Assembly: GCA_024508855.1 (NCBI GenBank)
Contig: JANINJ010000107.1
Location: forward strand, 1 to 64,000
Length of the DNA stretch: 64,000 bases
Direction of reading: 5' to 3'
Origin: Xanthobacteraceae bacterium
GTDB taxonomy: Bacteria; Pseudomonadota; Alphaproteobacteria; Rhizobiales; Xanthobacteraceae
Shown: piece after piece, positions 5,434-45,331 of the stretch
Layout of the letters: each line of letters opens with the position of its first letter
Position numbering within the stretch: position 1 is the first letter of the stretch
The notes under the pieces: model-generated
What the model saw: the letters and a program-made list of their open reading frames with translations, nothing else
Database searches by the model: none
What the model was told of the DNA's origin: nothing
Made by a program: the position numbers and the translations under genes

Positions 5434-6869
5434 CACCGCGGCGCACGATGCGCCCTGCACTACCCGGTGCTCCCGCGATGAGGCAAGCAACCTTTCCGGT
5501 TGGCGAACGGTATCCGGGAACAACGAGACTGTCACCGTTGCAGCGTCGCAGGTCTGCAGTGGTGCGCAGCTCGCCTATCGATATTGCCATCGCTGCTCTG
5601 ATGCTTGGAGCTGTGATCGTCACATTCACGGTTTCGCCAGCGATGCTGACGAACTGGCACATTCACTATCTTACGGCTGGCGGCATCTTTCTCGAGAAAG
5701 TACATCCGGCAACCTATTTGACATTTGCGGCGCTCACGCTGCTATTGATCCGGCACGGAAATCCGGTTGGCGAACTCAGCCGGATGCTCTCCGAAGCAAA
5801 ACTGTTCCTTCTATACCTGTTCTGCTGGCTGTTTCTGCTGGTTCAGGTCGTCGTACTTAACCGCCCGTTCACAGTCATTATCGACACCTTTCTCCTGCCG
5901 GTCGCCCTTTGCCTTGTTATATGGCAACTCACGCCATTCCAGCGCCGGCCATTGATCTGGGCGCTTCATGCGACCATGCTCTTGAACGTCGCATTGGGCT
6001 ACTTCGAATACGTAACGGGGCATCGCCTGTTTCCGCTGACGCTCGGCAGTGTTCTTGTGGTCGGCGAATGGCGATCGGCAGCTCTACTCGGACATCCGCT
6101 GACGGCATCGGGCATCGTTGCCGGCTATATTATTGCGCTGTTGCTGCGCCCGCAGATTTGCCCTCGGCCTGCGCTTCGCCTGCTGATCATCACGCTCTGT
6201 CTCGGCTCGATGATGGCTTTCGGCGGCAGAACCGCGCTCGTTTGCGTGCTTGTCGTTATCGGCACGATTTTTCTACTGACGGGACTGAACCTTCTAAAAG
6301 GCAGTCGCACGCCGCTGCTTAACGTGATCCTTGCAATGTGCGTGCTGTTCGCACTCGGCATGGGAATATTCCTTGCCCTTAACCTAGGCATCTTTGACAA
6401 GATGCTGCTGCGTTTCTCGTCCGACAAGGGCAGCACACTGGCGCGTTATGCGACCTTCAGCTTTCTTTCCCACCTCGACTGGTACGAGCTGATTCTCGGG
6501 CCGAACCCGGTGCGGGTAAACGCGCTCCAGACCCAACTGGGTCTCAACTACGGCATCGAGAATTTCTGGATTTCATGCGTCGCTCAGTTTGGACTCGTTC
6601 ATACGATCCTGTTGACGATAGGTCTGGCCGGCTTCCTGATAGAGATGCTTCGCCGCGCGCACCGCGCAGCTTGGGTCATCACGATTCTGATGTTCACCAT
6701 CGCGCTGAGTTCGGTCAGCTTCTCGTCAAAGAGCATCCAACTAGCTCAATTCGTTATTCTGATAACGTTGCTTCTGCCGCGGACGCCCGCTCGTCAGCCG
6801 TTGCAGCACTCACCGAATGCGCGGCCCCGCGGCCTTCAGCAGCAATCTCTAGCCCGGAATATCGCATGA
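5430..6869 (+). CDS. O-antigen ligase/polymerase-like membrane protein (Wzy family)
   Basis: This 479-residue protein has about ten to twelve hydrophobic segments and a larger periplasmic loop near residues 330-370, the layout of Wzy polymerases and WaaL ligases. The start overlaps the kinase stop as ATGA (5430-5433), indicating coupled translation. Position between the co-polymerase and a glycosyltransferase favours a polymerase that joins lipid-linked repeat units in the periplasm. Sequence is poorly conserved in this family, so polymerase versus ligase cannot be separated here. Confidence 0.78.
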   Translation: MTPRRTMRPALPGAPAMRQATFPVGERYPGTTRLSPLQRRRSAVVRSSPIDIAIAALMLGAVIVTFTVSPAMLTNWHIHYLTAGGIFLEKVHPATYLTFAALTLLLIRHGNPVGELSRMLSEAKLFLLYLFCWLFLLVQVVVLNRPFTVIIDTFLLPVALCLVIWQLTPFQRRPLIWALHATMLLNVALGYFEYVTGHRLFPLTLGSVLVVGEWRSAALLGHPLTASGIVAGYIIALLLRPQICPRPALRLLIITLCLGSMMAFGGRTALVCVLVVIGTIFLLTGLNLLKGSRTPLLNVILAMCVLFALGMGIFLALNLGIFDKMLLRFSSDKGSTLARYATFSFLSHLDWYELILGPNPVRVNALQTQLGLNYGIENFWISCVAQFGLVHTILLTIGLAGFLIEMLRRAHRAAWVITILMFTIALSSVSFSSKSIQLAQFVILITLLLPRTPARQPLQHSPNARPRGLQQQSLARNIA

Positions 6870-7963
6870 CCATCTACGTCGACCACACGCATCTCGGACG
6901 GCACGTGACGGGGCTCGAACGGATCACCCTTGAATTGTTCTCGCCGGCGGCCCTGGCTCCCTTACCAGTAGTTCCGGTCAAAGCAAGCGGGACGGCGAAA
7001 ATGATCGCAACGCAGACGTTGGGCCTACCGTTTCGGCTGGCCACCTCGTCATCGTTATTACTATGCCCAGGCTTCCCACCAACGCCGCTTCTGCGTCCGT
7101 TCGCGGCCCGCGTGCTTCCCTATATTCATGACATCTTTCTGCTGTCCCGCCGCGCCGACCTCAATCCGCGCGCCCGCCTCTATATGGCGCCGCCGTTTGC
7201 CCTGGCCTTGCGCACCTATCCGCGATTCCTGGTCAACTCGCTGGATACCAGAAACAAGCTGTCCCGATACTGTCGCCCCGATTCTGAAATCGTACCGTAT
7301 CGCCCATCCGTTCGAAACGTATTCGATCTCGAATCCGACGGCCGGGATTCGCGCGACGATGACGCTCCATCCCTGCGGCTGGTCGCCCTCGGCACGGTTG
7401 AACCGAGGAAGAATTTCATGGCTGCGGCGGACATTCTCGATGCATTGCGCGCACTTGGATATACCAACGCAACGCTGGAGATCATCGGCCGCGCCGGATG
7501 GGGTGAGGACTGGTCCCGATTGGCACATCGCCCCGGTGTAACGTTGCATGGATATCAGTCGGCCGAACGCGTGAAGGAAATCCTGGAGCGCGCCGATGTC
7601 CTCCTCTGCACATCCCACGAAGAGGGACTCGGGCTCCCACTGCTTGAAGCCCAATATGCCGGTCTGCCTGTCATCGCTCCCGATGGCGCGATTTTTCACG
7701 AAGTCCTGGATCGATCCGGCATCTTCGTCGACACCAATGATCCCGCGGCCGCCGCTGAGAAGATTGCCGGCGCGATGTCATCTCCAGCCTGGCGCTCAGG
7801 CTACGCAGCGCTCGGGGCTCGCAACCTGCATCGCTGGAACGCGCTGGCGGCCGCCGATCGTTCCATCGTCATCGATCTCATCGCTCGACTGGCACACGAC
7901 CGGACGCCGTCGCATGCCGGGTCCACTCGTCATGATCAAACCGATACCAGCTTCGCCCCATGA
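6866..7963 (+). CDS. Glycosyltransferase, GT4 family
   Basis: The start at ATG 6866 overlaps the previous stop (ATGA), giving 365 residues. An upstream in-frame extension lies inside the Wzy gene and is rejected. The C-terminal half is a Glycos_transf_1 domain with LVALGTVEPRKN opening the donor domain and the EEGLGLPLLEA motif (E-x7-E) that binds the sugar nucleotide. It likely adds one sugar to the lipid-linked repeat unit at the inner face of the membrane. Donor and acceptor cannot be read from sequence. Confidence 0.88.
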   Translation: MTIYVDHTHLGRHVTGLERITLELFSPAALAPLPVVPVKASGTAKMIATQTLGLPFRLATSSSLLLCPGFPPTPLLRPFAARVLPYIHDIFLLSRRADLNPRARLYMAPPFALALRTYPRFLVNSLDTRNKLSRYCRPDSEIVPYRPSVRNVFDLESDGRDSRDDDAPSLRLVALGTVEPRKNFMAAADILDALRALGYTNATLEIIGRAGWGEDWSRLAHRPGVTLHGYQSAERVKEILERADVLLCTSHEEGLGLPLLEAQYAGLPVIAPDGAIFHEVLDRSGIFVDTNDPAAAAEKIAGAMSSPAWRSGYAALGARNLHRWNALAAADRSIVIDLIARLAHDRTPSHAGSTRHDQTDTSFAP

Positions 7964-8023
7964 GATGCATCTGCGTTCGCTAAATCCGCACGCTTTCGTA
8001 ACCTGTTCGTTAGGACCAACACC

Positions 8024-9136
8024 TTGCAAGATGCCAGGATCGCCACCCGTCATCTCGACGCCTTGCGGATCATCGCCGCCTGCGCCGTCGTGGTCCTGCA
8101 CTATTCAGATTATGTGAAAAACCAGGCTGCCGGCCATTTCATCTATGAACATGCGCAGCACTTCAATCTCTTCGTGGATTTGTTTTTCGTCATCTCCGGC
8201 TTCGTGATCGCAAGCCAATATCTCGGCAAGGTAGACAATGTACGAACCATCGGCCGCTTCCTGTGGCGCCGGCTCGCACGTATCTATCCGCTGCACCTTG
8301 CCACGCTTGCGTTCTACCTTGTCGTCGCCGCCGCCATTCAGGGCGATCTCGCTAGTACGGGTAATTCCGCGCGCTACCCGCTCTCGGACGTTCCGGCGCA
8401 GTTGCTGCTTCTCCATGCGCTGATCGGTCAGCGGCTCACCTTCAATTTTCCGAGTTGGTCGCTCTCTGCCGAAATGTTCTGCTACGTGATCTTTCCGCTT
8501 GTCGCGGTAGTGGCCGCGCGCCGGAGAGACTTGCTGCTACCACTGATAGTTATTCTGATCGTCGCCAATAGTCTTTTCGCGACGGCGACGGGCACCGGCC
8601 CATGGGCGGATTGGATCAATCACGGCGGCGTCTTTCGCGCCTTCCCTGCGTTCATTCTTGGCATGGCCTGCAGCCGATATCGCGACCGGATCGCACAGTG
8701 GCGCATTCCTCCCGCAGCGCTGACGATCGCATTGGCAGGATTTACTCTATTGGGTTGGTCGATTCCGAAAATGATGGCGCTCGGATGGATCTATCTCATT
8801 GCCGCGCTTGCGATCCACTGCGATTGCGCTGGACGCGACTCGCTCATGACGCGACTTCGCATCGCCCGTTGGTCGCCTCTCACCTATTCCTGCTACATGC
8901 TGCACATTCCAGTCGCGACCGTCATTATTACTCTCGGCGCTCGCCTCATGTCCGGGATCCCGGATCGAGAACTTGCATTGCTGCCCGCTGCAATCGCTGT
9001 CCTGGCTGTAGCGAGCGTCATTTCCTACCGCTATTTCGAAACACCTGCCCGGGATGCACTGAACGAGGCGTTCGATCGCTGGGACGCGCGTCGCGTCGCC
9101 ATTCCAGCCATGACGCCGGGAGGGGAATCCCGATGA
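8024..9136 (+). CDS. Acyltransferase 3 family membrane protein (first of two)
   Basis: The reading frame opens with TTG 8024 preceded by an AGGA element about ten bases upstream; the nearby ATG 8031 is out of frame. The protein has 370 residues. LDALRIIAACAVVVLHYS in helix 1 is the conserved start of the acyltransferase-3 family, with the catalytic-type His; FFVISGFVIA follows, and about ten membrane helices are present. Such proteins O-acetylate or O-succinylate surface sugars. It lies in the polysaccharide operon and overlaps the next gene by ATGA, so it likely decorates the exported polymer. Confidence 0.87.
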   Translation: MQDARIATRHLDALRIIAACAVVVLHYSDYVKNQAAGHFIYEHAQHFNLFVDLFFVISGFVIASQYLGKVDNVRTIGRFLWRRLARIYPLHLATLAFYLVVAAAIQGDLASTGNSARYPLSDVPAQLLLLHALIGQRLTFNFPSWSLSAEMFCYVIFPLVAVVAARRRDLLLPLIVILIVANSLFATATGTGPWADWINHGGVFRAFPAFILGMACSRYRDRIAQWRIPPAALTIALAGFTLLGWSIPKMMALGWIYLIAALAIHCDCAGRDSLMTRLRIARWSPLTYSCYMLHIPVATVIITLGARLMSGIPDRELALLPAAIAVLAVASVISYRYFETPARDALNEAFDRWDARRVAIPAMTPGGESR

Positions 9137-21982: not shown

Positions 21983-23623
21983 ATGGTCAGTCAAGCCGCA
22001 ACGAAAAGCCCCAATATTCTGCTGATCCTCAATGACGACATGGGCTTTTCCGATATCGGCTGCTATGGCGGCGAAATCGAAACACCCAATCTAGACCGAC
22101 TGGCCCGCAACGGCCTGCGTTATTCGCAATTCTACAATACGGCACGATGCAGCCCGTCCCGCGCCTCCCTGCTGACTGGATTGCATCCGCATCAAACCGG
22201 CATTGGAATTCTCACCTACAGCAACGGCCCGGAAGGCTATGCGGGCAACCTCAACAAGCGCTGCGTCACCATCGCCGAAGTGTTGAAGCAGAAGGACTAC
22301 AAGACTTATCTCAGCGGCAAGTGGCATATCGCCAGCAATCTGACGCAACCGACCGATGCGTGGCCGTTGCAGCGCGGTTTCGACTACTTTTATGGCACGA
22401 TCATCGGTGCCGGCAGTTTCTACAGTCCGAATACGCTCACACGCGGAAACGATAACATCGAGCACGAGGCGGAGAGCGATCCGTCATTTTTCTACACCGA
22501 CGCGATCAGCGATCAAGCTGCAGCCTTCATCCGCGATCACAAGCAGGCCCATCCCGACAAGCCTTTCTTTCAGTATGTAGCCTATACGGCCCCCCATTGG
22601 CCGCTGCATGCCCACGAGGAAGACATCGCGAAGTATAAAGGCAAATTCGATGCCGGCTGGGATCAGCTGCGCGAATCCCGGCTGGCACGCCTCGTTCAGG
22701 ACGGCATCATTCACCCAGGCTGGCAGTTGACCGACCGCGACCCGACCCAGCCGCCGTGGACCGAGGCGGAAAACCGCACCTGGCTGTTGCGATGCATGGA
22801 GGTATACGCAGCCCAGATCGACCGGATGGATCAGGGCATCGGCCGCATTCTCGCTGCGCTCGAGGAAAGCGGCGAAATCGACAACACCTTGATTATCTTC
22901 CTGTCCGATAACGGCGCATGCGCGGAGGATATTCCGGACGGCGTCACAGCGCGCGAATTGGTCGACGAACTGATGATTGCCAAGGCCAAGACGCGCGATG
23001 GGCGGCCGGTTCGCTTCGGCAACGATACATCGTTGATGCCGGGCCCCGAAGATACTTATCAAAGCTACGGCGTCGCCTGGGCTAATCTGTCGAATACGCC
23101 GTTTCGGCTGTACAAACACTGGGTCCATGAGGGCGGAATCGCCACGCCGCTCATCGTGCATTGGCCGCAAGGCATCGCGGAGCGGGGCGGCCTACGTCAT
23201 AATCCGGGTCAACTGCCGGACGTAATGGCAACGATCCTCGAAGTCTCCGGCGCCCCCTACCCCAAAACGTACGATGGCAACGACATCCTGCCGTGCGAAG
23301 GCGAAAGTCTCGTCCCTTCCTTCAGCAGCGCTTACAGCGCACGCGGGCCGTTGTTCTGGGAGCACGAGGGCAACGCCGCGATCCGAATCGGGAAATGGAA
23401 ACTGGTGCGCAAATATCCGGACCCATGGGAGTTGTTCGACATGGAGGCCGACCGCACCGAGATGCACAATCTCGCCGGGCAATACCCGGAGCGAGTGGAA
23501 GACATGGCCAAGCAATATGCAGCGTGGGCGCAGCGCTGCGGCGTAATTCCACGGGAAAAGATTCTGGAATTGATGAAAGCCGAAGGCGGCAATGCCTTCT
23601 GGGAAGAAGAGAATCAGAACTGA
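21983..23623 (+). CDS. Type I sulfatase (arylsulfatase-like), cytoplasmic
   Basis: The 546-residue protein is close to AtsA in length. It has the metal-binding pair NDDMG (Asp18-Asp19), the sulfatase signature CSPSRASLLTG with Cys56 as the residue converted to formylglycine, the SGKWH lysine motif, and LSDNG near residue 308. No signal peptide is present, so desulfation should occur in the cytoplasm after import by the upstream ABC system. An AGGAAG ribosome binding site precedes ATG 21983. The enzyme that makes formylglycine is encoded 15 bases downstream. Substrate class (aryl, alkyl or sugar sulfate) cannot be fixed from sequence. Confidence 0.93.
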   Translation: MVSQAATKSPNILLILNDDMGFSDIGCYGGEIETPNLDRLARNGLRYSQFYNTARCSPSRASLLTGLHPHQTGIGILTYSNGPEGYAGNLNKRCVTIAEVLKQKDYKTYLSGKWHIASNLTQPTDAWPLQRGFDYFYGTIIGAGSFYSPNTLTRGNDNIEHEAESDPSFFYTDAISDQAAAFIRDHKQAHPDKPFFQYVAYTAPHWPLHAHEEDIAKYKGKFDAGWDQLRESRLARLVQDGIIHPGWQLTDRDPTQPPWTEAENRTWLLRCMEVYAAQIDRMDQGIGRILAALEESGEIDNTLIIFLSDNGACAEDIPDGVTARELVDELMIAKAKTRDGRPVRFGNDTSLMPGPEDTYQSYGVAWANLSNTPFRLYKHWVHEGGIATPLIVHWPQGIAERGGLRHNPGQLPDVMATILEVSGAPYPKTYDGNDILPCEGESLVPSFSSAYSARGPLFWEHEGNAAIRIGKWKLVRKYPDPWELFDMEADRTEMHNLAGQYPERVEDMAKQYAAWAQRCGVIPREKILELMKAEGGNAFWEEENQN

Positions 23624-23638
23624 CGATGACCGACGATC

Positions 23639-24607
23639 ATGACTGATGGCGCCCCCAGCTGTTGCGTGACCGGCCGGGGCTATGAAGGCAACGACCGCGT
23701 GGCCGTGCGGGCGATCTCGCCACGCTCCCGGCCGGCTCCGCATCGCTGGAGCGGCAGCATCGGAGGGACGTTCGTAATGGGCTCCGCGGAGCCAGGCCGC
23801 TTTCCCGCCGACGGGGAAGGCCCAGCACGCAACGTCTCGGTGTCACCCTTCGAGATTTCCTGTCATGCGGTGACCAACGCGCAGTTTGGCGAATTCGTCC
23901 GGGAGACCGGATACACCACGGACGCAGAACGCTTCGGCTGGTCGTTCGTCTTCGAGATGTTGGTGCAACCGGAGCTTCGGCAGGAAATCGGCCGTGTTGT
24001 CGCCGACACGCCGTGGTGGATTCCCGTTTCCCACGCCTATTGGGCTCAGCCGGAGGGGCCGCACAGCACTGTGCTGGAGCGCCTGGACCACCCCGTCGTT
24101 CACGTCTCGTGGAACGACGCCAAGGCCTATTGCACCTGGGCTCACGCACGACTTCCGACCGAGGCCGAGTGGGAATTTGCCGCGCGTGGCGGGCTCGATC
24201 GAAAGATTTATCCCTGGGGCGACGAACTGCTACCGGCAGGAAACCATCGCTGCAACATCTGGCAAGGCCAGTTTCCGGTCGTCAACACCGCCGAGGACGG
24301 GTTTATTGGCACAGCACCGGCGAACGCGTACGAACCCAACGGATACGGGCTTTTCTGCGTCGTAGGAAATGTGTGGGAGTGGTGCGAGGATTTCTTCTCG
24401 CCCGGCTATCACCGCACGACGGCTTCCGCCGATCCGATCAACATTGAGCCGACAGCAAGCCGCTCGCTACGCGGCGGCTCGTTCCTCTGCCACGATTCCT
24501 ATTGCAATCGCTACCGCGTCGCGGCCCGAAGCTCGAATACGCCGGACAGTTCCGCGAGCAACATTGGATTTCGGGTCGTCTGCGACAAGGCATCAAATTC
24601 GGCCTGA
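23639..24607 (+). CDS. Formylglycine-generating enzyme (sulfatase-modifying factor)
   Basis: This 322-residue protein has the FGE-sulfatase fold pattern: [30 protein letters not shown] and a C-terminal [18 protein letters not shown]. Both copper-binding active-site cysteines of true aerobic FGEs are present (Cys284 and Cys289), which separates it from the many FGE-fold proteins lacking them. It oxidises the CxPxR cysteine of the adjacent sulfatase. No export signal is present, consistent with cytoplasmic maturation. Confidence 0.94.
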
Positions 24608-31430: not shown

Positions 31431-32588
31431 CTAGGTGTTCTTTCGGGTCCGTCGCAGGAAACGCTCCTTGAAGACTCCCCACATCAGCGAGAATATCCCC
31501 AACGACTTGACCGATTGTTCACCGATGGCTTCACCTTTGAGCGACGCTTCAAGATTGGAAACGAAGATCGAAGCAAGCCGCTGAATCACGTCCTGAACAA
31601 GTCCGGCACGATTGAATTGGGCGAGCCGTCCGCTCAGGCGCCAGGAGAGACTTACCTGGATCAGGCTGTCCGACGCTTCTCCCGGGAGCACGCGCCATTC
31701 CACCTCTCCTTCAGCGGTCGATCCGGAGCCGGCATCTCGACCGCCGCCGCTCAAGCGGCCAATACGCCTCTCGGCATCGAGCATCACGTTGCCATCACCG
31801 TTGAAGGCAATTTTCATCGGCCCAAGGGTGACATTCATCTTGCCGCGGATGCGATCACCGTCGAGCTCGGTGATTTCAGCCCCCGGCAAACACGTAGAGA
31901 CCTCGCGAATATCGGAGAGACGATCCCAGACGACGTCGGGTGAAAAACCCACGGTGAGACGTTGCTCGATCGAGGACCATCCCTTGCGCGCGCTCGTTCC
32001 CGCTGATGGCGTGGCAACGGTCGGACGAGGTGCTGGCGCAAACACCTTCCTCACGGTATCGGCCGGTCGACTAGCGACCGTAGCCTCGATCGCTGCAACG
32101 GGAGCTTTCGGGTCTCGCGCGGCTTTTCCTTTGCTGACCTGCTCGACTGCTTCCACAATCCCGACGTAGCCGGTACAGCGACACAGATTGCCAGACAGCT
32201 CTTCGCGAATGCGCGCAGCGCTGGTTTCTCCAAGCCTGAGAATGATATCGCGCGCCGTGATCAGCATTCCGGGTGTACAGAAGCCGCATTGCAGCGCGTG
32301 GTGGCGTGAAAACGCAACCCGGAGTTCATCCATTAGCGCGTCGTCGTCAAACCCTTCGATCGTCGTGATAGAACCGCCTTCACAGTCACCCGCATAACTG
32401 ATGCAGGATCGCTGGGGTTTGCCGTCGACGACGACGGTGCATGCGCCGCAAACCCCCTGCTCGCATCCGACATGGGTGCCGGTCAAGTTCAGATTCTCAC
32501 GCAGCAATTCACACAACTGCGTACGTGGCTCAACCGTCGCGGCTGCCGGTCGTCCGTTGACAGTCAAACTGACGTTGAGCATTGGCAT
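31431..32588 (-). CDS. Molybdenum hydroxylase [2Fe-2S] subunit fused to a CoxG-like domain
   Basis: The start at 32588 follows the stop of the FAD-subunit gene by one base and gives 385 residues. Residues 1-160 are a CoxS/XdhC-like iron-sulfur subunit with Cys42, Cys47, Cys50 and Cys62 for the plant-type cluster and Cys101, Cys104, Cys136 and Cys138 for the second. A linker rich in Ala/Pro (about 160-205) leads to a C-terminal SRPBCC/CoxG domain (SSIEQRLTVGFSPDVVWDRL, CLPGAEITELDG). CoxS is normally about 160 residues and CoxG is separate, so this is a fusion. CoxG is linked to membrane anchoring of CO dehydrogenase in Oligotropha. Confidence 0.88.
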   Translation of the reverse strand: MPMLNVSLTVNGRPAAATVEPRTQLCELLRENLNLTGTHVGCEQGVCGACTVVVDGKPQRSCISYAGDCEGGSITTIEGFDDDALMDELRVAFSRHHALQCGFCTPGMLITARDIILRLGETSAARIREELSGNLCRCTGYVGIVEAVEQVSKGKAARDPKAPVAAIEATVASRPADTVRKVFAPAPRPTVATPSAGTSARKGWSSIEQRLTVGFSPDVVWDRLSDIREVSTCLPGAEITELDGDRIRGKMNVTLGPMKIAFNGDGNVMLDAERRIGRLSGGGRDAGSGSTAEGEVEWRVLPGEASDSLIQVSLSWRLSGRLAQFNRAGLVQDVIQRLASIFVSNLEASLKGEAIGEQSVKSLGIFSLMWGVFKERFLRRTRKNT

Positions 32589-32589
32589 T

Positions 32590-33426
32590 TCAGACGGTTT
32601 CCAGGAGCGATATTTTCTGCAAGCTGCGTTGTACAGCGACGGCAAGCTGCTGCCGGTGACCGGGCTCAAGATGCGGAAGGACTTCCTCGATCTCCTGGCG
32701 CGCAACGCCAGCAGCACGATCAGCACCCTGGGTAGCCAGTGTTTCGCCACTCCGAGCAAGCAAGACCGGACGACCTTCGGTTGAACCGGCAAGGACTCGG
32801 AATATCCCGGCCCGGGGATCCTGGATCGTGACGCCGATGGCTTTCGCGAATTCACCGGTCTTGCGACAGACTTTGTAATAACCCCACCGAGCCGTCGCCG
32901 AGAGGCGCGGAAGTTCGATCGCAGTTAGGAGTTCGGTAGCGCCGAGTTTCGAGGTGAAGGCTCCAACCAAAAACTGCTCCGCCGGCACGCGGCGTTCACC
33001 TGCCGGTCCATGGACGACCATCGTGGCACCTATAGCTGCCATAGTAGAGACCCAATCGGCAGCCGGATCGGCGTGCGACAGACTGCCGCCGACGGTACCG
33101 CGATTTCGCACCGCTCGGTATGCGATGCCGCGTGCTACGAACGGCAATAGCCCTTGCGAAAAATCCTCGAACGCACCGTCCTCGATCTCCGCGTGGGTCA
33201 AAGTCGCTCCGATCGAATACGACTTCTCGTCAACCCGCACAGCTCGTAGTGCCTGGATGTTGCGGATGTCGACCAGTTTTGCGGGACGGGCCAGCCGCAG
33301 GTTCAACATCGGCCCGAGCGATTGACCGCCGGCAAATATCTTGGCGTTCGCGCTCTCATCTGAAAGCAGCGCCGTCGCTTCTGGCAAACTTCGAGGCCGA
33401 ACATAATCGAAAGGGGCGGGCTTCAT
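32590..33426 (-). CDS. Molybdenum hydroxylase FAD-binding subunit (CoxM type)
   Basis: The 278-residue protein has the medium-subunit FAD motifs KIFAGGQSLGPMLNLRL and TVGGSLSHADPAAD. It relays electrons from the iron-sulfur subunit to the acceptor. It overlaps the large-subunit gene by ATGA and is followed at one base by the small-subunit gene, in the order L-M-S. Confidence 0.92.
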   Translation of the reverse strand: MKPAPFDYVRPRSLPEATALLSDESANAKIFAGGQSLGPMLNLRLARPAKLVDIRNIQALRAVRVDEKSYSIGATLTHAEIEDGAFEDFSQGLLPFVARGIAYRAVRNRGTVGGSLSHADPAADWVSTMAAIGATMVVHGPAGERRVPAEQFLVGAFTSKLGATELLTAIELPRLSATARWGYYKVCRKTGEFAKAIGVTIQDPRAGIFRVLAGSTEGRPVLLARSGETLATQGADRAAGVARQEIEEVLPHLEPGHRQQLAVAVQRSLQKISLLETV

Positions 33427-35768
33427 GCTGCGTCGTTCAACGTGGGCTTCGCCGCTGCGATCGCCGCGAGGATGCGCTCGGGAGAAGCGGGAATTGTGTG
33501 TACTGCGGCGTTGAGAGGAGCGAGCGCGTCATTGATTGCGTTTACCAGAGCTCCTGCCGGGGCAATGGCTCCGCCCTCGCCGACGCCTTTAAGGCCGTGC
33601 GCGGAGTAAGGCGATGGCGTCTCCATATGCGAAATACGGAAACGGGGAAGTTCGGTCGGTCCTGGCAGCAGATAGTCGATCAATGTCGACGCCAGAGGCT
33701 GTCCGTTATCGTCGTACGGGCTTTCCTCGAACAGTGCCGTGCCGACGCCCTGGGCTGCTCCGCCGATCGTCTGGCCATCGACAATCATTGGGTTGACCAT
33801 CGTGCCGCAGTCTTCGCAGATAGCATAATCGAGGATTTCGACGAGCCCCGTCTCTGCATCGACGGCAACGTATGCCGCGTGGCTCGCGTATGAAAACACA
33901 CCGCTATCGATCTGCGGCTTGTAGGCGCCGGTCGCTTCCAACCCTCCTCTGTCGACGTCATCGGGAAGCTGGTCCGGCCGCATGTACCAAGCCCTGCCGA
34001 CGTCCTCATAGGAAACACTTGCTTCGCCGGCGAAGATGGCTCCATCGCGGAAACTGATATCTTCGGGACGAACCTGCAGAAGATGGGCGGCGATGCTTTT
34101 GATCCGTCCCGCGACAATCTCGGATGCAACCGAAACCGCACCGCCAGTCATCACGATACCACGGGACGCATAAGCTCCCGTCGAAAAGGGCGTGTTGGCG
34201 GTATCTCCCAGCACAACGCGAATATCCTTCAACGGGACTCGCGTTTGTTCATGGGCGATCTGGGCAAGGGTCGTTTCCAGACCTTGACCTATGGTGTGGA
34301 TGCCCGCCTTGATTTCGAGCGCACCGTCCGGCGTTAACTTGACGTGAGCCTGGTCGAAACCGGGAACGAGCGGAAGACCCCATTGAGCAAACACCTTGGT
34401 ACCGTGGGCGGATTGCTCGGTATAAGTTGCAAAGCCTACACCGAGGTATCGCCCCTTTGCATCACGCCGCGGCTCACTGCGGATGCGATCGAAATCGATC
34501 ATGCGCTTCACTTCGAGAAGCGAGGCGGGATAGTTGCCGCTGTCATAGAACTTCTTGGTGACGTTGGTGTAGGGCATGGCGGAAGCGGCGACGAGATTCT
34601 CGAGCCGGACTTCCCAGGCCTCTCGCCCGACCGCCTTTGCGATTGCATCAATCGTCAATTCGATGGCGAAGCACACTCCCGGACGCGCGACACCTCGATA
34701 CGGCGCGAAAGGCGGCTTGTTAGTTGCTACCGAAAAAGTACTGCAGCGATATGCCTTGAGATCGTAAGGGCCAGGCAGATTCCCGCTGGCCTGAGCCGCC
34801 TCGAGGCACGCCGAGAATGGCCATACGGAGTATGCGCCACAATCAACAGCAACGTCCGCATCGAGACCAAGAAACCTGCCACGCTCATCGGCGTAGGCCT
34901 TGATCTTGTATTCATGCTGACGCGCATTCGCTCCGGCCGTGAGATGCTCCCGCCGATCCTCGATCCAGCGAAACGCTCCCTGCCTCGTATACGCAAGCCA
35001 AGCGACGGCGACTTCCTCGGGCATCAACATGCACTTGTAGCCGAAGCCCCCACCGACATCAGGCGCAGCCACACGGATAATGGCCTGCGGTATGCCGAGA
35101 CATTCCGCAAGCCCGATGCGGATCATGTGAGGCACCTGGGTCGAGGTGTGCACGACCAACTGCCCGGCCCGGTGATCCCACCACGCAACCAGCCCCTTCC
35201 CTTCCATCGGGTGCATCGTCTGGCGCGCGGTCGAGAGCTCCAACTCGACGACGACAGGAGCCTTGGCAATCACCTCGTCCATGCCCTGGTCAAACGAGGT
35301 GCGCAGGAACAGGTTGTCAGTCCACCCATCGTGCAGCGGCTTCACCCCCGATGCGCGCCCCGTTGCGCAATTCACGATGGGATCGAGTTCTTCATACTGG
35401 ATATCCACAAGCTCGCAGAGATCCTCCGCGGCCGCGCGATTGGGCGCTACGCACATCGCAATGGTCTCGCCAACGAAGCGAACACGCTCCGCGGCAAGCG
35501 CTGGATAATCGGAGACCTTGTAGCCCGGGATGGACGAGCGCGTCGTGATCGGCAACACACCGGGCATATCGTCGTTAAAGATAACGGAGTTCTCGAATCC
35601 GGCAGGCTTTTTGCGTTCACGAATGAGCGCGTGAGCAACAGGACTGCGGACAAACGCGACTTCAAGCATTCCGGGGATCCGGATGTCTCCGACGAACTGG
35701 CCGCGGCCACGGAGATGTCTTGCGTCCTCCTTTCGGAGAACGCGCGCGCCGATTCCTTCAGAGGCCAT
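33423..35768 (-). CDS. Molybdenum hydroxylase large subunit (xanthine dehydrogenase/CoxL family)
   Basis: ATG 35768 is chosen for its GGGAGAG ribosome binding site and because the family opening (GIGARVLRKEDARHLRGRGQFVGD) starts there; 781 residues result. The moco-binding domains are complete, including the near-C-terminal GVGEGG with the catalytic Glu. The CO dehydrogenase form-I loop AYRCSFR is not present: the equivalent region reads FAPYRGVARPG, so it is not a CO dehydrogenase. The enzyme probably hydroxylates an aldehyde or N-heterocycle. It heads the L-M-S set downstream of the TRAP binding protein gene. Confidence 0.9.
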   Translation of the reverse strand: MASEGIGARVLRKEDARHLRGRGQFVGDIRIPGMLEVAFVRSPVAHALIRERKKPAGFENSVIFNDDMPGVLPITTRSSIPGYKVSDYPALAAERVRFVGETIAMCVAPNRAAAEDLCELVDIQYEELDPIVNCATGRASGVKPLHDGWTDNLFLRTSFDQGMDEVIAKAPVVVELELSTARQTMHPMEGKGLVAWWDHRAGQLVVHTSTQVPHMIRIGLAECLGIPQAIIRVAAPDVGGGFGYKCMLMPEEVAVAWLAYTRQGAFRWIEDRREHLTAGANARQHEYKIKAYADERGRFLGLDADVAVDCGAYSVWPFSACLEAAQASGNLPGPYDLKAYRCSTFSVATNKPPFAPYRGVARPGVCFAIELTIDAIAKAVGREAWEVRLENLVAASAMPYTNVTKKFYDSGNYPASLLEVKRMIDFDRIRSEPRRDAKGRYLGVGFATYTEQSAHGTKVFAQWGLPLVPGFDQAHVKLTPDGALEIKAGIHTIGQGLETTLAQIAHEQTRVPLKDIRVVLGDTANTPFSTGAYASRGIVMTGGAVSVASEIVAGRIKSIAAHLLQVRPEDISFRDGAIFAGEASVSYEDVGRAWYMRPDQLPDDVDRGGLEATGAYKPQIDSGVFSYASHAAYVAVDAETGLVEILDYAICEDCGTMVNPMIVDGQTIGGAAQGVGTALFEESPYDDNGQPLASTLIDYLLPGPTELPRFRISHMETPSPYSAHGLKGVGEGGAIAPAGALVNAINDALAPLNAAVHTIPASPERILAAIAAAKPTLNDAA

Positions 35769-35847
35769 CTGCCGCTCTCCCTGATTCCGGAACGTCAAAT
35801 GCAGCCAAAGCAAAGCACCACAGACATCGCGTCCAGACCAGACCTTC

Positions 35848-39977: not shown

Positions 39978-40157
39978 TTTGCCTTCCAGCCACCCTTGCG
40001 CTATGACCGCTTCGCCGATGCGGAAAGCTCTGGACACCCCCCGCAACCTTCATCGCGCCACGTGAAACAGTTGCAAAGTCGACCGGCAGGGAGTCCAATT
40101 GGCACAATTCGACCCGGACAGGCCTCGTGCTTCACCGGGCGCGCGACAGGAAATCTT

Positions 40158-40733
40158 ATGGCGATCAACGCAAAATCTCGCACGGCAAAGCCGGCGCAAT
40201 CCAATTCTCCGATCAAACTTCCCACGCCCAAAGGCAAACGTCGGAATTACTCGGTGTCGAGTGCCCTGATGTCGGAAATGCCGCTATGGGCTCGCCCAGG
40301 TTATCTGCTCCGGCGATTGCATCAGATTCATTATGCGCTGTTCTTCGAGGAATGCGCCGCATTCGATATCACGCCCGTCCAATACGGGCTTTTGACCACA
40401 CTCATGGCCAACCCCGACCTCGATCAGAACTCGCTTGCGCGCGAACTCGGCATCGATCGCACCAACGTCGCCGACGTACTCAACCGGCTGAGCCGGCGCG
40501 GATTGATCGAACGGCGACGCGGCAAAGTCGACAAGCGAACGATGCTGGCGCGACTGACCCCTGAAGGAAAGCACGTCACCAAGGACATGTACATCGCAAT
40601 GCAGCGCGCGCAGGAGCGCTTGCTTGAGCCACTCCTGCCAGCCGAGCGGCATGCCTTCATCTCGACCTTGATTCGGCTGATCGATGGAAACAATCACCTC
40701 GGCCGCACGATCTTCAGTCCGAGCGAGGCTTAA
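40158..40733 (+). CDS. MarR family transcriptional regulator
   Basis: ATG 40158 has an AGGA box seven bases upstream and gives 191 residues; a longer open frame to 39996 lacks a binding site. After a basic, probably disordered N-terminus of about 40 residues comes the winged-helix core: QYGLLTTLMANPDLDQNSLARELGIDRTNVADVLNRL and the wing RRGKVDKRTMLARLTPEG. The family represses catabolic genes and releases DNA on binding a phenolic or aromatic acid. It sits at the centre of the island whose four promoters share one motif. Confidence 0.92.
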   Translation: MAINAKSRTAKPAQSNSPIKLPTPKGKRRNYSVSSALMSEMPLWARPGYLLRRLHQIHYALFFEECAAFDITPVQYGLLTTLMANPDLDQNSLARELGIDRTNVADVLNRLSRRGLIERRRGKVDKRTMLARLTPEGKHVTKDMYIAMQRAQERLLEPLLPAERHAFISTLIRLIDGNNHLGRTIFSPSEA

Positions 40734-40739
40734 CAATTC

Positions 40740-41384
40740 TCAGAAGGCATCGGGCTGCGTTTTCGGCTGCGTTTCCGTGAAGGCCGGAAGCGTCATGCAG
40801 TTCTCGAATATTTCGTTGAGCTTCGTATAGGCACCCAGTTCGCAGCCGAAGCGTCGGGCATTGAAGATCTGCGGCACCAAGCAGATATCCGCCATGGTAA
40901 CCGCGTCGCCGAGCGCAAATTGTGCCGACCGCCCCTCCCGAACGACGTAGTCCTCCAGCGCCCCGAGCCCTTCCGCGATCCAGTGCCGGTACCACTCATT
41001 GGTCGCGGCCTCGTCGGCGCCGAATTGACTTTGCAACCGCTTGAGCACGCGGACATTGTTGAGTGGATGAATGTCGCAGCCGATGATCTGTGAAAACGCT
41101 CGTACATAAGCCCGGTCCTGTGCGGTCTTCGGCATCAGTGCAGGTTCAGGGTATATTTCGTCGAGGTATTCGATAACCGCGAGCGACTGAATCAGTGGTT
41201 GCTCATCCTCGATCAGCAGGGGCACAAGTCCCTGCGGATTGAGGTCCCGGTACGCAGTCTCGCGGTGCTGCATTTTTGGCAGGCTAACGTAGTGCGGTTC
41301 GTAAGCCAGCCGCTTGTGCGCGAGGGCAATGCGCATCCGGTACGAGGTCGAAGACCGGAAGAACGTATAAAGATGCCGCGCCAC
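40740..41384 (-). CDS. Zeta-class glutathione transferase (maleylacetoacetate/maleylpyruvate isomerase)
   Basis: The 214-residue protein has the zeta-class active-site motif RSSTSYRMRIAL (SSxSxxxR), then NPQGLVPLLIEDE and IEYLDEIYP. Such enzymes isomerise maleylacetoacetate or maleylpyruvate to the fumaryl form using glutathione in homogentisate or gentisate breakdown. No ring-cleavage dioxygenase or fumarylacetoacetase is seen nearby, so the actual role could differ. It is convergent with the MarR gene and nine bases downstream of the ABM-fold gene. Confidence 0.88.
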   Translation of the reverse strand: MARHLYTFFRSSTSYRMRIALAHKRLAYEPHYVSLPKMQHRETAYRDLNPQGLVPLLIEDEQPLIQSLAVIEYLDEIYPEPALMPKTAQDRAYVRAFSQIIGCDIHPLNNVRVLKRLQSQFGADEAATNEWYRHWIAEGLGALEDYVVREGRSAQFALGDAVTMADICLVPQIFNARRFGCELGAYTKLNEIFENCMTLPAFTETQPKTQPDAF

Positions 41385-41393
41385 CGGACGATC

Positions 41394-41762
41394 TCACCCG
41401 GCGGCTTTTTGCAGGATCTCGTCCGGGGTGGACGATACGACCTCAACATATTTGGGGACGAACTTGCCGCCCTCGATATACTTGATGAATTCCGGCTTGA
41501 TCTCGTTCGCCAAGATCTTGCGGATCTTCGCGTGCTCCTCGATGTCCGACCATTCGGCAATCAGAAAGAAACGCTGCGGATCTTCGACATCGCGGCAAAG
41601 CACACCGTCCTTCACCTGGGCTGACGATTTGTGCATCGGGTTACCGTCCGAATAGTCGAACTCCTCGAACAGCCGGACGAACTCGTCTTCGTGGCCAGCC
41701 TGCACCCGGAAATCGTAAATGTGCAGGAAGTTCCCTTTATTCGCGATCGGCTCTTGAGCCAT
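41394..41762 (-). CDS. Small ABM-fold (antibiotic biosynthesis monooxygenase-like) protein
   Basis: An AGGAGAG box fixes the start at 41762 (122 residues). The core FLHIYDFRVQAGHEDEFVRLFEEF with RFFLIAEWSDIEEHAK matches the dimeric alpha/beta barrel of ABM-domain proteins, which can be cofactor-free oxygenases or isomerases. It forms a two-gene unit with the GST gene, divergent from the Rieske gene, and is preceded by operator copy B. Specific reaction unknown. Confidence 0.75.
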   Translation of the reverse strand: MAQEPIANKGNFLHIYDFRVQAGHEDEFVRLFEEFDYSDGNPMHKSSAQVKDGVLCRDVEDPQRFFLIAEWSDIEEHAKIRKILANEIKPEFIKYIEGGKFVPKYVEVVSSTPDEILQKAAG

Positions 41763-41795
41763 GACGGCACTCTCCTGATTTGCATCTCTGGAATT

Positions 41796-41816
41796 TATGA
41801 TGGTACACTGACTAAA
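41796..41816. promoter_or_regulatory. Putative MarR operator, copy B
   Basis: TATGATGGTACACTGA CTAAA lies 34 bases upstream of the ABM-fold gene start, in the 151-base divergent region that also contains copy C. Confidence 0.6.
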
Positions 41817-41876
41817 TTGACGAAGCAATATCCCGGCTTCGACTCTAGGTGTCCGGGACGATTGCCTTCCAACAAT

Positions 41877-41897
41877 TATGATGTACACTGATCAATA
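41877..41897. promoter_or_regulatory. Putative MarR operator, copy C
   Basis: TATGATGTACACTGA TCAATA lies 17 bases upstream of the Rieske fusion gene start and would block transcription or initiation there when bound. It is one base shorter in the middle than the other copies. Confidence 0.6.
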
Positions 41898-41913: not shown

Positions 41914-44799
41914 ATGGCCTGGCTTCATGCGGCATCCTTGAATTCGATCCGGGACGGCGCTGTCGTCAGCGCCGACGTCGGGGGAACCCCGGTTGCACTC
42001 TACAATCTGGGCGGCGAGATTTACGCCACTCACGGCATCTGTACCCATGCGCTGGCGCTGCTGTCGGAAGGCTGGGTCGAAGACGGCAAAATCGAGTGCC
42101 CGCTTCACCAGGGCCAGTTCGATATCCGCACCGGCAAGGCACTGTGCGCCCCGCTGACGCAAGATCTACGCACCTACGCGGTCAGGGTCGACGGCGACGA
42201 CATTCTTGTCGACCTTGACCAGCATGGCGCGCGTCCCAGCCTCACCTCGAAAAAAACGGAAAGCACAGTACAGCCCGACAAGACGGCGATAGCAGCGACG
42301 GCCGTGATCGTCGGCGCCGGACAAACGGCGGCGGCAGCGATCCGTGCGCTGCGCAGCGCAGGTTTTAATGGCGCGATCGATCTGGTCGGTGACGAAGTGC
42401 ACCTGCCCTACGAACGTCCGCCTCTGTCGAAGGACATGCTGCTCGGCCGCGGCAATCTGGAAGCCTGCACGCGCTTGAGTCGGAACGATGCGGACTCCCT
42501 GGGGGTGCGGCTGCACCTCGGCCAGCGAGCGGTGTCTATCGATTCCGCCGAAAAGCTCGTTCATCTCGCGAGCGGTGAAACGCTGCCTTACGATACCTTG
42601 CTGATCGCAACCGGCGGCCGCGCACGCCGGCTTGGTATTCCCGGTTCCGACCGGGCGGGCGTCTTCCATTTACGTACCATCGAGGATGCCGCCGCAATCG
42701 ATCGCGCATTCGGATCTGCAACGCATGTAGCGATCATCGGCGGCGGCTTTATCGGTCTGGAGCTGGCATCCGCCGCAGTCGCAAGAGACGTCGCCGTCAC
42801 GGTGCTTGAACGTGAGCCGGAAATCATGATGCGCCTGCTGCCGAGACCGCTCGGCCGCACTTTCCGGCGTGTCGCCGAGGCCCATGGCGTCGACGTTCGG
42901 CTGAACGCCGATATTCGCGAAATCACGCAGAGAGGCAGCAAGCTCGGTATCGTGACCGAACAGGATACGATCGAGGTGGACGCCGTACTTGTCGGCATCG
43001 GCCTTGAACCGGTTCTCGATCTCGCCGTGACTGCCGGCTGTGCGGTTGCTGGCGGCATCGAGGTGGATGCCGAAGGACGCACCAGCATTCCGGGCATTTG
43101 GGCTGCGGGCGACTGCACTCTGCACCATATTCCGAAAAGCGACGGGCGGCGCGTGCGGCTGGAGAGTTGGCACAACGCCGAAGAGCAAGGCGCCGCGGCT
43201 GGACGCTCGATGGCCGGAGCCACATGCGATGCGGTTATGAAAAAACCCTGGTTCTGGACCGACCAGTTCGGCCTCAATATCCAGATGATCGGGAGTATCC
43301 ACGCGAACGACATGGTCGTGCGCCACGGCGATATCGACGCCGCCGCCGGTGCCATTTATCGCACGATCGATCGCGAAACCGGCCTTCTCACCGGCGTAAT
43401 CGCTTTTTCGGCACCGGATGCGATCCGGCAAGCGCGTCACGATCTTGAAGCGACCACCCCATTCGTTCTCGACAACGTCTCCAACGTTGTGCTCGCCGAC
43501 GACGAAAGCGAATCCAACACTTCACCTTCGGAGATCTCTGCCATGAACGCGCCTTCATCCCTGGCATTGACCAAACGCTATTTGTGGCCGCAAGAAGGGC
43601 TGACCCGCATTCCGGATTGGGTTTACACCGACGAGACGATCTACGAACGCGAGGTCGAGAAGATTTTTCATGGCCGAACCTGGAACTATGTCGCGCTCGA
43701 ATGCGAGGTACCAAATCCGGGCGATTACATCCGCTCCCATGTCGGCCCGACGCCCGTCGTCGTTGCGCGCGCGGAGGATGGCTCGATCAACGTGTTCGAG
43801 AATCGCTGCGCCCACCGGGCGGCAGAGTTCTGCCGCGAACTGAGCGGCAATGCCAAGGAGTTCGTCTGCCCCTATCATCAGTGGTCCTACGATCTGAAAG
43901 GCAATCTCGCCGGTGTGCCTTTCCGTCGCGGCGTCAACGGCAAGGGCGGCATGCCTGCCGACTTCAAGACTGCAGATCACGGCCTGCGCAAGCTGAACGT
44001 GACGACACATCGCGGCGTCGTATTCGCTTCCTATAACGACACGATGGAATCATTTGAGGACTATCTCGGCCCCGAGGTATTGAGCGAGTTCGATGCGACC
44101 TTCGATGGCCGCAAACTCAAGCTGCTCGGCTATTACCGTCATTCCCTGCCTGGCAATTGGAAGCTCTATCACGAGAATCTCAAGGATCCTTATCACGCGA
44201 CGCTGTTGCACACGTTCCTCGTGACGTTCGGGCTTCTAGTCGCAGGCAATCGCTCCCTGATGCTCGCCGACCCATCCGGCCGGCACGGCGTGATGGCATC
44301 TGCAAAGTCAGACGGCAAAACAGTAACAAGCGATGCCAAGAAGGAGATGCGCGCTTATCGCGAAGGGATGACCTTGGAGGAGCCGCGCTTCATGGACTTT
44401 ATCGACGAGTTCAAAAGCCCGTGGTCGGTGACGATGTCGACGATCTGGCCGAATCTCATCGTCCAACGCGAGATGAATACGCTCGGCATCCGCCAGATCG
44501 TGCCAACGGGACCGCATGAATTCATCATGAAGTGGACCATGTTCGGTTTCGAAGGCGACAGCGAGGAAATGACGCGCCACCGTCTGCGTCAGGGCAATCT
44601 GATGGGGCCTGCCGGCTTTCTCGGACTCGAGGATAACGAGGCCATCAAGTTCGTTCAGGATGGCATGCAGCGTGTCCCGAACGGCGAGCACCTGGTGAAG
44701 CTTGATCCCGAGATCGAAGCTGGAACTGCGGATAGCCTTATTTCGGAAGCGGCAATTCGTGCCATGTACAAGCACTGGCGCCAGGAAATGGGGCTTTGA
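41914..44799 (+). CDS. Single-ORF Rieske ferredoxin + FAD reductase + oxygenase alpha subunit
   Basis: One uninterrupted 961-residue frame holds all redox parts of a ring-hydroxylating oxygenase except the beta subunit. Residues 1-105 form a Rieske ferredoxin (Cys43, His45, Cys62, His65). Residues 128-540 form a ferredoxin reductase with FAD motif VGAGQTAA (133-140), PYERPPLSKD, NAD motif IIGGGFIGLELA (275-286) and IWAAGDC. After an acidic/serine linker (about 525-543), residues 544-961 form a full oxygenase alpha subunit with Rieske ligands Cys632, His634, Cys652 and His655 and the iron site NLKDPYHATLLH (His761, His766). An internal ATG 43543 with a GGAG box could also start the alpha part alone. 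The substrate is probably an aromatic or heteroaromatic acid. The beta subunit follows at once. Confidence 0.9.
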   Translation: MAWLHAASLNSIRDGAVVSADVGGTPVALYNLGGEIYATHGICTHALALLSEGWVEDGKIECPLHQGQFDIRTGKALCAPLTQDLRTYAVRVDGDDILVDLDQHGARPSLTSKKTESTVQPDKTAIAATAVIVGAGQTAAAAIRALRSAGFNGAIDLVGDEVHLPYERPPLSKDMLLGRGNLEACTRLSRNDADSLGVRLHLGQRAVSIDSAEKLVHLASGETLPYDTLLIATGGRARRLGIPGSDRAGVFHLRTIEDAAAIDRAFGSATHVAIIGGGFIGLELASAAVARDVAVTVLEREPEIMMRLLPRPLGRTFRRVAEAHGVDVRLNADIREITQRGSKLGIVTEQDTIEVDAVLVGIGLEPVLDLAVTAGCAVAGGIEVDAEGRTSIPGIWAAGDCTLHHIPKSDGRRVRLESWHNAEEQGAAAGRSMAGATCDAVMKKPWFWTDQFGLNIQMIGSIHANDMVVRHGDIDAAAGAIYRTIDRETGLLTGVIAFSAPDAIRQARHDLEATTPFVLDNVSNVVLADDESESNTSPSEISAMNAPSSLALTKRYLWPQEGLTRIPDWVYTDETIYEREVEKIFHGRTWNYVALECEVPNPGDYIRSHVGPTPVVVARAEDGSINVFENRCAHRAAEFCRELSGNAKEFVCPYHQWSYDLKGNLAGVPFRRGVNGKGGMPADFKTADHGLRKLNVTTHRGVVFASYNDTMESFEDYLGPEVLSEFDATFDGRKLKLLGYYRHSLPGNWKLYHENLKDPYHATLLHTFLVTFGLLVAGNRSLMLADPSGRHGVMASAKSDGKTVTSDAKKEMRAYREGMTLEEPRFMDFIDEFKSPWSVTMSTIWPNLIVQREMNTLGIRQIVPTGPHEFIMKWTMFGFEGDSEEMTRHRLRQGNLMGPAGFLGLEDNEAIKFVQDGMQRVPNGEHLVKLDPEIEAGTADSLISEAAIRAMYKHWRQEMGL
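43530..43545 (+). promoter_or_regulatory. Internal ribosome binding site and ATG at the oxygenase alpha boundary
   Basis: GGAG (43530-43533) lies nine bases before an in-frame ATG (43543) exactly where the alpha-subunit homology begins (MNAPSSLAL, residue 544). It could yield a separate alpha subunit in addition to the fusion, or be a relic of once separate genes. Confidence 0.5.
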
Positions 44800-44800
44800 T

Positions 44801-45331
44801 ATGCAAGGCACCGTGATGACCCGACCGTCGTATGCCGACAGCGATGCCCGTCTGGCAAGTCTGCTGCTTCACCACGAGATCGCGACCTTCAACAACGAAT
44901 ACGCGGCAGCGCTCGACGAACAACGCCTCACCGACTGGGCAGAGATGTTCGCTGACGACGCACTCTATGTGATCCTGTCGCGTGAGAATTTCGACCGCAA
45001 CCTGCCCGTCGGTCTGATCTATTGCGAAAACAAAGGAATGATTCGCGATCGAGCGTTCGCGCTGAAAGAGACGGCCATGTTCGCGCCGCGCTATTTGCGC
45101 CATATGATCGCCAATCAGGCAGTTTTATCCGAGGCGCCGGATGGCACGATCACAGCGCGGGCAAACTATGTCGTGCTTCAGGTCCTCTACGATCGGCCGG
45201 ATGCGACACTGCACCAGGTCGGCGTCTACCACGACAAATTCCGGCGCGTAGACGGCGTACTGAAACTCGCGGAACGCCGCTGCGTCTACGACAACCTGCT
45301 GGTCGACAACGCGCTCTGCCTACCGATCTGA
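44801..45331 (+). CDS. Ring-hydroxylating oxygenase beta subunit
   Basis: Starting one base after the alpha stop, the 176-residue protein has the SnoaL-like/cystatin-like fold pattern of beta subunits: EIATFNNEYAAALDEQRLTDWAEMFADDALY and a C-terminal ERRCVYDNLLVDNAL. With the alpha part it would form the usual hexamer. ATG 44816 is a possible alternative start. Adjacent to the amidase gene by 37 bases. Confidence 0.9.
   Translation: MQGTVMTRPSYADSDARLASLLLHHEIATFNNEYAAALDEQRLTDWAEMFADDALYVILSRENFDRNLPVGLIYCENKGMIRDRAFALKETAMFAPRYLRHMIANQAVLSEAPDGTITARANYVVLQVLYDRPDATLHQVGVYHDKFRRVDGVLKLAERRCVYDNLLVDNALCLPI

Follow-up and report, generated by a model that had tools for sequence, protein, structure and literature searches.

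The window, a stretch of 64,000 nucleotides from a Xanthobacteraceae bacterium, carries a gene in which a Rieske ferredoxin, an FAD/NAD reductase, and the alpha subunit of a Rieske oxygenase are joined in a single reading frame, with the gene for the oxygenase beta subunit directly downstream (Table 1). The frame runs from ATG to TGA over 961 codons without any internal stop, and third-position GC is high along its entire length (0.76 in the second linker). Readthrough or a frameshift at the junction between reductase and alpha is unnecessary because the frame is open throughout. Pfam matched Rieske twice, with the better match in the N-terminal ferredoxin, followed by Pyr_redox_2 (residues 130–426), Reductase_C (446–517), and Ring_hydroxyl_A (740–959). 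The probable ATG of the beta subunit lies two bases past the end of the alpha stop codon, which satisfies the test of an adjacent beta-subunit gene for an alpha3beta3-type Rieske non-heme iron oxygenase.

Table 1. Features of the fused gene and its surroundings in the window, and the related ferredoxin-oxygenase genes (positions within each locus).
Feature	Position	Strand	Extent	Basis or remark
Ferredoxin-reductase-oxygenase alpha fused gene	41914–44799	+	961 aa	Open frame and Pfam domains
Rieske ferredoxin domain	41914–42225	+	Residues ~1–104	Pfam Rieske 3–88; ligands C43, H45, C62, H65
First linker (ferredoxin-reductase)	42232–42291	+	Residues 107–126	pLDDT <50
FAD/NAD reductase domain	42292–43494	+	Residues ~127–527	Pyr_redox_2 and Reductase_C
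Second linker (reductase-alpha)	43504–43626	+	Residues 531–571	pLDDT <50; length and sequence vary among relatives
GGAG, proposed internal ribosome-binding site	43530–43533	+		9 bases before ATG 43543; duplex energy −6.6 kcal/mol
Oxygenase alpha from proposed internal start M544	43543–44799	+	418 aa	Short form
Oxygenase beta subunit	44801–45331	+		Probable start ATG 44801; longest frame from 44702; Ring_hydroxyl_B, E 7.1e-17
maiA-type isomerase	40740–41384	−		TIGR01262, 258.5 bits (cut-off 171.05)
MarR-family regulator	39996–40733	+		Longest frame
Small ABM-like protein	41394–41888	−		PF03992, 23.3 bits
Ferredoxin-oxygenase gene, L043	5386–7059			Reductase not found in fetched stretch
Ferredoxin-oxygenase gene, L044	5602–7251			Reductase not found in fetched stretch
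Ferredoxin-oxygenase gene, L045	2556–4211			Reductase not found in fetched stretch
Ferredoxin-oxygenase gene, L055	5542–7230			Reductase not found in fetched stretch
Ferredoxin-oxygenase gene, L057	1699–3333			Reductase not found in fetched stretch
Ferredoxin-oxygenase gene, L042	2–1534			Truncated by contig end; reductase not found in fetched stretch

The residues expected of a complete electron chain are conserved among the fused proteins. In an alignment of 33 rows, the four ferredoxin ligands, the CxH...CxxH cysteines and histidines of the alpha Rieske center (C632, H634, C652, H655), the glycines of the FAD motif (G134, G136) and of the NAD motif (G276, G278, G281), and the mononuclear-iron residues H761, H766, D907, and D758 are all invariant, so that the tests for the alpha Rieske center and for the mononuclear iron were both met. 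The last four residues align with identical residues of NagG. We take H761, H766, and D907 to be the His, His, and Asp ligands of the mononuclear iron and D758 to be the bridging aspartate; the roles of the other invariant residues are likewise assigned from what is known of these families. The original prediction, which placed all cluster, flavin, and iron ligands in one 961-codon frame with this domain order and with the beta subunit as the next gene, is thereby borne out. All redox domains share the oxygenase chain, as the concept of a self-sufficient oxygenase demands. The term applies to the long alpha subunit together with beta, since beta remains a separate gene, a point that the original prediction did not stress. 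Hexameric assembly, oxygenation, and turnover with NAD(P)H in the absence of added redox proteins are inferred, and activity of the fusion was held to be an inference in the original prediction as well.

We modeled the fused protein as a monomer with AlphaFold2, using the 33 aligned fused proteins as input (mean pLDDT 75.0, pTM 0.53). In addition to the linkers, several segments of the oxygenase half fall below a pLDDT of 50 (residues 671–678, 758–779, 799–804, 810–828, 899–919, and 921–952). Support from this predicted structure is better for the ferredoxin module, the reductase module, and the linkers than for the oxygenase half; because it is a monomer with a pTM of 0.53 and low-confidence oxygenase segments, it is uninformative on docking.

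Distribution and origin of the fused gene

Contigs were scanned with the alpha part as the query, and the best 80 loci were taken; these are the nearest to the window and do not represent population frequencies. Judged by reading frames, 36 of the 80 have a single frame that spans ferredoxin, reductase, and oxygenase, and 31 have separate genes. Six others join ferredoxin to oxygenase, and the stretches fetched for them showed no reductase; in six more, neither partner of alpha was found. One locus (L078), with alpha in a 535-aa frame together with a reductase fragment, was excluded from these classes. The same fused frame occurs on NZ_CP067132.1, a complete Paracoccus seriniphilus plasmid (L118, at 5845–8814 of the locus), and in two single-contig genomes (G478 and G737). 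The gene table of this plasmid lists the alpha part alone (7567–8814) and leaves the ferredoxin-reductase half of the frame without a CDS. The genome of the window is a draft in 107 contigs, where a sequencing or assembly error might have deleted a stop codon between reductase and alpha; the homologues with the same frame already refute such an artefact, which can be considered practically ruled out. The expectation of an intact linker without a lost stop near 43500 therefore holds, and the three-in-one electron chain proposed originally is supported as both conserved and unusual.

The fused gene is sporadic; Xanthobacter aminoxidans, Paracoccus seriniphilus, and Alloalcanivorax are among its cultured carriers. 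Among 385 genomes drawn from the class, 42 had a match at 1e-100 and six a full-length, stop-free one, with the genome of the window counted. A draw of 398 genomes from the phylum gave three matches at 1e-150, all full-length and again including the window's own. Some genomes in these draws duplicate loci from the scan of the best 80. Among 101 near relatives (E limit 1e-60), a full-length match was found in the window's own genome only. Such a sporadic occurrence fits horizontal transfer.

Long open frames listed beside four loci (816 aa at L013, 904 at L020, 716 at L024, and 1489 at L126) were considered as possible further fusions. On inspection, L013 has an alpha frame of 429 codons, L126 an alpha frame of 473 aa, and L024 an AIFL-type ferredoxin-reductase; the frame read for L020 was an antisense one. 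The genes of Caballeronia SBC2 (H2/L119), joined into one piece by tblastn, are split. Two loci contain long open frames antisense to the fused gene (L038, 1712–4645, minus strand, 977 aa; L040, 4414–7857, minus strand, 1147 aa), which are probably an effect of G+C content.

The split operons of Burkholderiales and Pseudomonas have the same order as the fusion, namely ferredoxin, reductase, alpha, and beta. Their assigned alpha starts lie from 14 bases before to 89 bases after the reductase stop; for L093, L096, L109, L115, and L119, no alpha ATG or GTG was found within the range searched. In a reductase tree of 92 rows, all 38 fused rows are confined to the same side of a single branch (SH-aLRT 94), which makes one fusion event the simplest origin. 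In an alpha tree of 88 rows, the fused label requires five changes, and a group with fused genes also includes all six ferredoxin-oxygenase genes, four of them beside the gene of the window, and four of the six alpha-only genes. Both trees are quick searches without bootstraps. The simplest reading is a single fusion, through the loss of stops in a colinear operon, and subsequent spread between classes; some genes would then have lost the reductase, or both partner domains. The direct ferredoxin-oxygenase fusions, which had escaped the original prediction, lie within the fused group of the alpha tree and constitute a second architecture found in nature.

Fusions of the AIFL/AIFM3 type also join a Rieske domain and a reductase in one chain, as in L002 in the window's own genome, but they lack an oxygenase. 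Their reductases group separately in the reductase tree; the fused gene does not belong to them, and an AIFL-type origin of its N-terminal half is unsupported.

A putative internal start in the second linker

Because of a probable internal start, the mature product may be two proteins, a possibility that the original prediction missed. An in-frame ATG or GTG behind a Shine-Dalgarno match of −5 kcal/mol or stronger occurs in the second linker of 36 of 37 fused genes (31 at −6, 20 at −7, and 18 at −8 kcal/mol), whereas codon-shuffled linkers reached the −5 threshold in a mean of 10.6 and a maximum of 16 of 37 over 100 shuffles. When one gene was retained per 85% alpha identity, the site was present in all 13 representatives, whereas 1000 shuffles gave 4.0 on average and never more than 9. 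In the window, the main start has a match of −4.1 kcal/mol, against −6.6 for the internal site; in 27 of 35 comparable genes, the internal site equals or exceeds the main start in strength (medians −7.9 versus −6.3). The internal start lies a median of 14 residues ahead of a conserved WP motif. Five further loci outside the 37 were checked singly (L118, L121, L123, L163, and L164). L163, from G737, has a different sequence and a site of −7.7 kcal/mol, and the deposited alpha CDS of L118 begins at exactly the internal ATG, although the gene table of that plasmid is incomplete. The only one of the 37 without the site is L069 (4351–7221). Its record is titled Mesoflavibacter, yet the gene groups with proteobacterial ones, and the label may be wrong.

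These observations meet the test for a gene within a gene, that is, a conserved internal ribosome site with an in-frame start, but the support is weak under synonymous recoding. With amino acids kept, the combined p was 0.033 over the 13 representatives, a weakly positive result; two of the 13 were below 0.05 on their own, as against 2.4% of 409 control windows. Acidic, Glu-rich codons account for a large share of the Shine-Dalgarno match. The fused gene might accordingly yield one product only, a working self-sufficient fusion in which the internal start is a by-product of acidic codons or a relic of a separate alpha gene. A relic is plausible in principle, as the alpha starts of the split relatives have similar sites, mostly from −4.9 to −7.6 kcal/mol. 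We consider a single product unlikely, though not negligible, because the site persists in every diverged representative in a linker whose sequence is otherwise variable, while equal windows elsewhere in the fused genes reach −5 in only 33% of cases (3% at −8) and the first linker in 16 of 37 (3 of 37 at −7).

The ferredoxin-oxygenase genes also speak against a single product. A site of −5 kcal/mol or stronger is found in one of their six linkers (L055, −6.6); the others are weaker (L042 and L043, −4.2; L044 and L057, −3.0; L045, −2.5), and L042 (−6.3) and L057 (−4.9) carry extra sites where the ferredoxin part ends. Fisher's test gives 4e-5 for 36/37 against 1/6, and 6e-4 against 2/6, but the six genes amount to only approximately three events. 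This decay of the internal site after the loss of the reductase fits the proposal that free alpha dilutes the fused chain.

The fusion could also merely ensure co-expression, if the chain were cut in the linker or if its N-terminal half donated electrons in trans, so that the enzyme would work as an ordinary multi-component system. The second linker is indeed disordered and unconserved, and alpha-only and separate-gene relatives exist. We regard mere co-expression as quite improbable, as the second linker contains no conserved processing site, the frame stays open across linkers of 35 to 70 residues, as delimited here, in 37 genes, and the ferredoxin-oxygenase genes retain the tether after the loss of the reductase.

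What is new here is that an in-frame start preceded by a Shine-Dalgarno match is retained in the variable linker before alpha. Genes within genes, in which the C-terminal part is translated from an internal site, are described for Cas11 of type I CRISPR systems and for Rpn (PMC10327210). Neither is an oxygenase, and their short products have been reported, whereas the short alpha is a prediction for which no expression or mass data exist.

Likely substrate and proposed mechanism

Several known systems resemble the fused oxygenase. The closest solved relative is the salicylate 5-hydroxylase NagGH (PDB 7c8z; alpha 434.8 bits over residues 14–417 of the short form), which likewise has a beta subunit. 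NagGH with NagAa and NagAb also uses a Rieske ferredoxin as donor; NagG, NagH, the ferredoxin, and the reductase are separate proteins there, and the Nag reductase belongs to a different type. The anthranilate 1,2-dioxygenase AndAaAbAcAd supplied the best NCBIfam models for alpha, beta, and ferredoxin and the second best for the reductase, all below the curated cut-offs (ferredoxin 113.1 of 150 bits, reductase 271.3 of 650, beta 138.2 of 230). Membership in AndAc (NF041684) was not met, with alpha at 403.9 of 750 bits. Self-sufficient P450s such as CYP102 and CYP116B also have all redox centers on one chain, but they are haem enzymes with an oxygenase unrelated to the Rieske fusion. Three split relatives (L097, L110, and L117) lie among pic-type neighbors in the gene order ferredoxin, reductase, alpha, and beta, and are comparable to PicB1B2B3B4. 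PicB is the 6-hydroxypicolinate monooxygenase of picolinate clusters and is encoded by four genes in Alcaligenes and Bordetella, compared with one fused gene plus beta here (PMC10142695). That its four parts are ferredoxin, reductase, alpha, and beta is our inference, as the passages in question give only their names and function.

The enzyme is likely to hydroxylate an aromatic or pyridine carboxylate that already bears a hydroxyl group, either salicylate-like, leading to gentisate, or 6-hydroxypicolinate-like. The gene layout beside fused relatives is that of picolinate clusters. Five pic-type genes adjoin the fused genes of L063 and L066, and Pfam named four of the five proteins in L066 (Amidohydro_2, Amdase, Abhydrolase, and Isochorismatase); the fifth, without a match, carries a PicD/NicX label that rests on our own recognition. 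NCBIfam at 1e-30 named none of six pic-type proteins. The annotated neighbors of L118 include the maleate isomerase ndpH, an alpha/beta hydrolase, an amidohydrolase, and a member of the xanthine-dehydrogenase family. The fused gene in the window itself lies near maiA, MarR, and amidase genes and near molybdenum hydroxylase genes at 31431–35813. In one shared-neighbor cluster ('ABM'), the ABM-like gene is mixed up with antisense frames; this cluster was left unused.

The enzyme of the window could thus be a fused PicB, as the pic-type neighbors of L063, L066, and L118 and the molybdenum hydroxylase genes of the window might suggest. We regard this identity as possible but doubtful. The pic-cluster test (PicC and PicD–G alongside) was not met; no PicC- or PicD-type gene appears in the window's list of shared neighbors, and only distant homologues occur elsewhere in the genome (37% identity for PicC-like, 35% for PicD-like). 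A salicylate 5-hydroxylase identity would fit the kinship with NagG, the adjacent maiA, and a gentisate 1,2-dioxygenase in the genome (608.8 bits, above the cut-off). The window's own neighborhood points more toward a salicylate/gentisate-type substrate than toward picolinate, and we favor a salicylate-type substrate with low confidence, the function being inferred. Elsewhere in the window, a 474-aa frame near the large subunit of the molybdenum hydroxylase (31431–32855, minus strand) combines Fer2_2 and CoxG, and its cluster has members in 30 loci; a sulfatase gene followed by one of the sulfatase-modifying-factor (FGE) type was found at 21983–24607 (plus strand).

Taken together, we assign a probability of approximately 0.65 to a naturally self-wired Rieske oxygenase consisting of the long chain and beta, with a probable free alpha in a mixed hexamer. 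Direct observation covers the fused frame with its domains and its conservation, as well as the recurrent arrangement of the internal start site; tethered electron transfer, two products, the mixed hexamer, and the substrate are inferred, without expression, mass, or activity data. Electrons would pass from NADH via FAD to the [2Fe-2S] cluster of the tethered ferredoxin; the Rieske cluster of alpha would accept them next and hand them over a subunit border to the mononuclear iron, so that the long chain and the separate beta could relay them without soluble partners. This route follows the established chemistry of Rieske oxygenases. The disordered linker of approximately 40 residues should give the donor module access to the oxygenase. 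The ferredoxin of cumene dioxygenase binds where alpha and beta meet (PMC9361823), and a flexible tether of this length should permit such docking. The ribosome-binding site and start codon in the linker would also produce free alpha, and the alpha3beta3 hexamer might mix long and short alpha, leaving the reductase sub-stoichiometric to the active sites. That the start has been selected, with one gene giving self-wired long alpha and free alpha and one mRNA setting the ratio of reductase to active sites, we hold with only a slight preference.

Implications for Rieske oxygenases

Rieske oxygenases are in demand as catalysts, and it is their multi-component electron chains that hold them back. 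According to a 2025 review, no self-sufficient Rieske oxygenase system has been identified yet, and the fusions constructed to date show attenuated activity and coupling (PMC12445004). Among the matches listed in open-access full-text literature on Rieske fusions, self-sufficiency, and salicylate and picolinate genes, no report of the fusion was found. If the proposed mechanism is true, a natural self-sufficient Rieske oxygenase with built-in control of stoichiometry would be seen here for the first time; loss of the reductase domain would then make the internal start dispensable and let it decay. The natural fusion family, with its range of second-linker lengths and its ferredoxin-oxygenase relatives, offers ready templates and opens tether length, reductase stoichiometry, and oxygen uncoupling to direct tests. 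Judging by the internal start, free alpha may dilute the tethered reductase, which could be a hint for designs that place all components on every chain.
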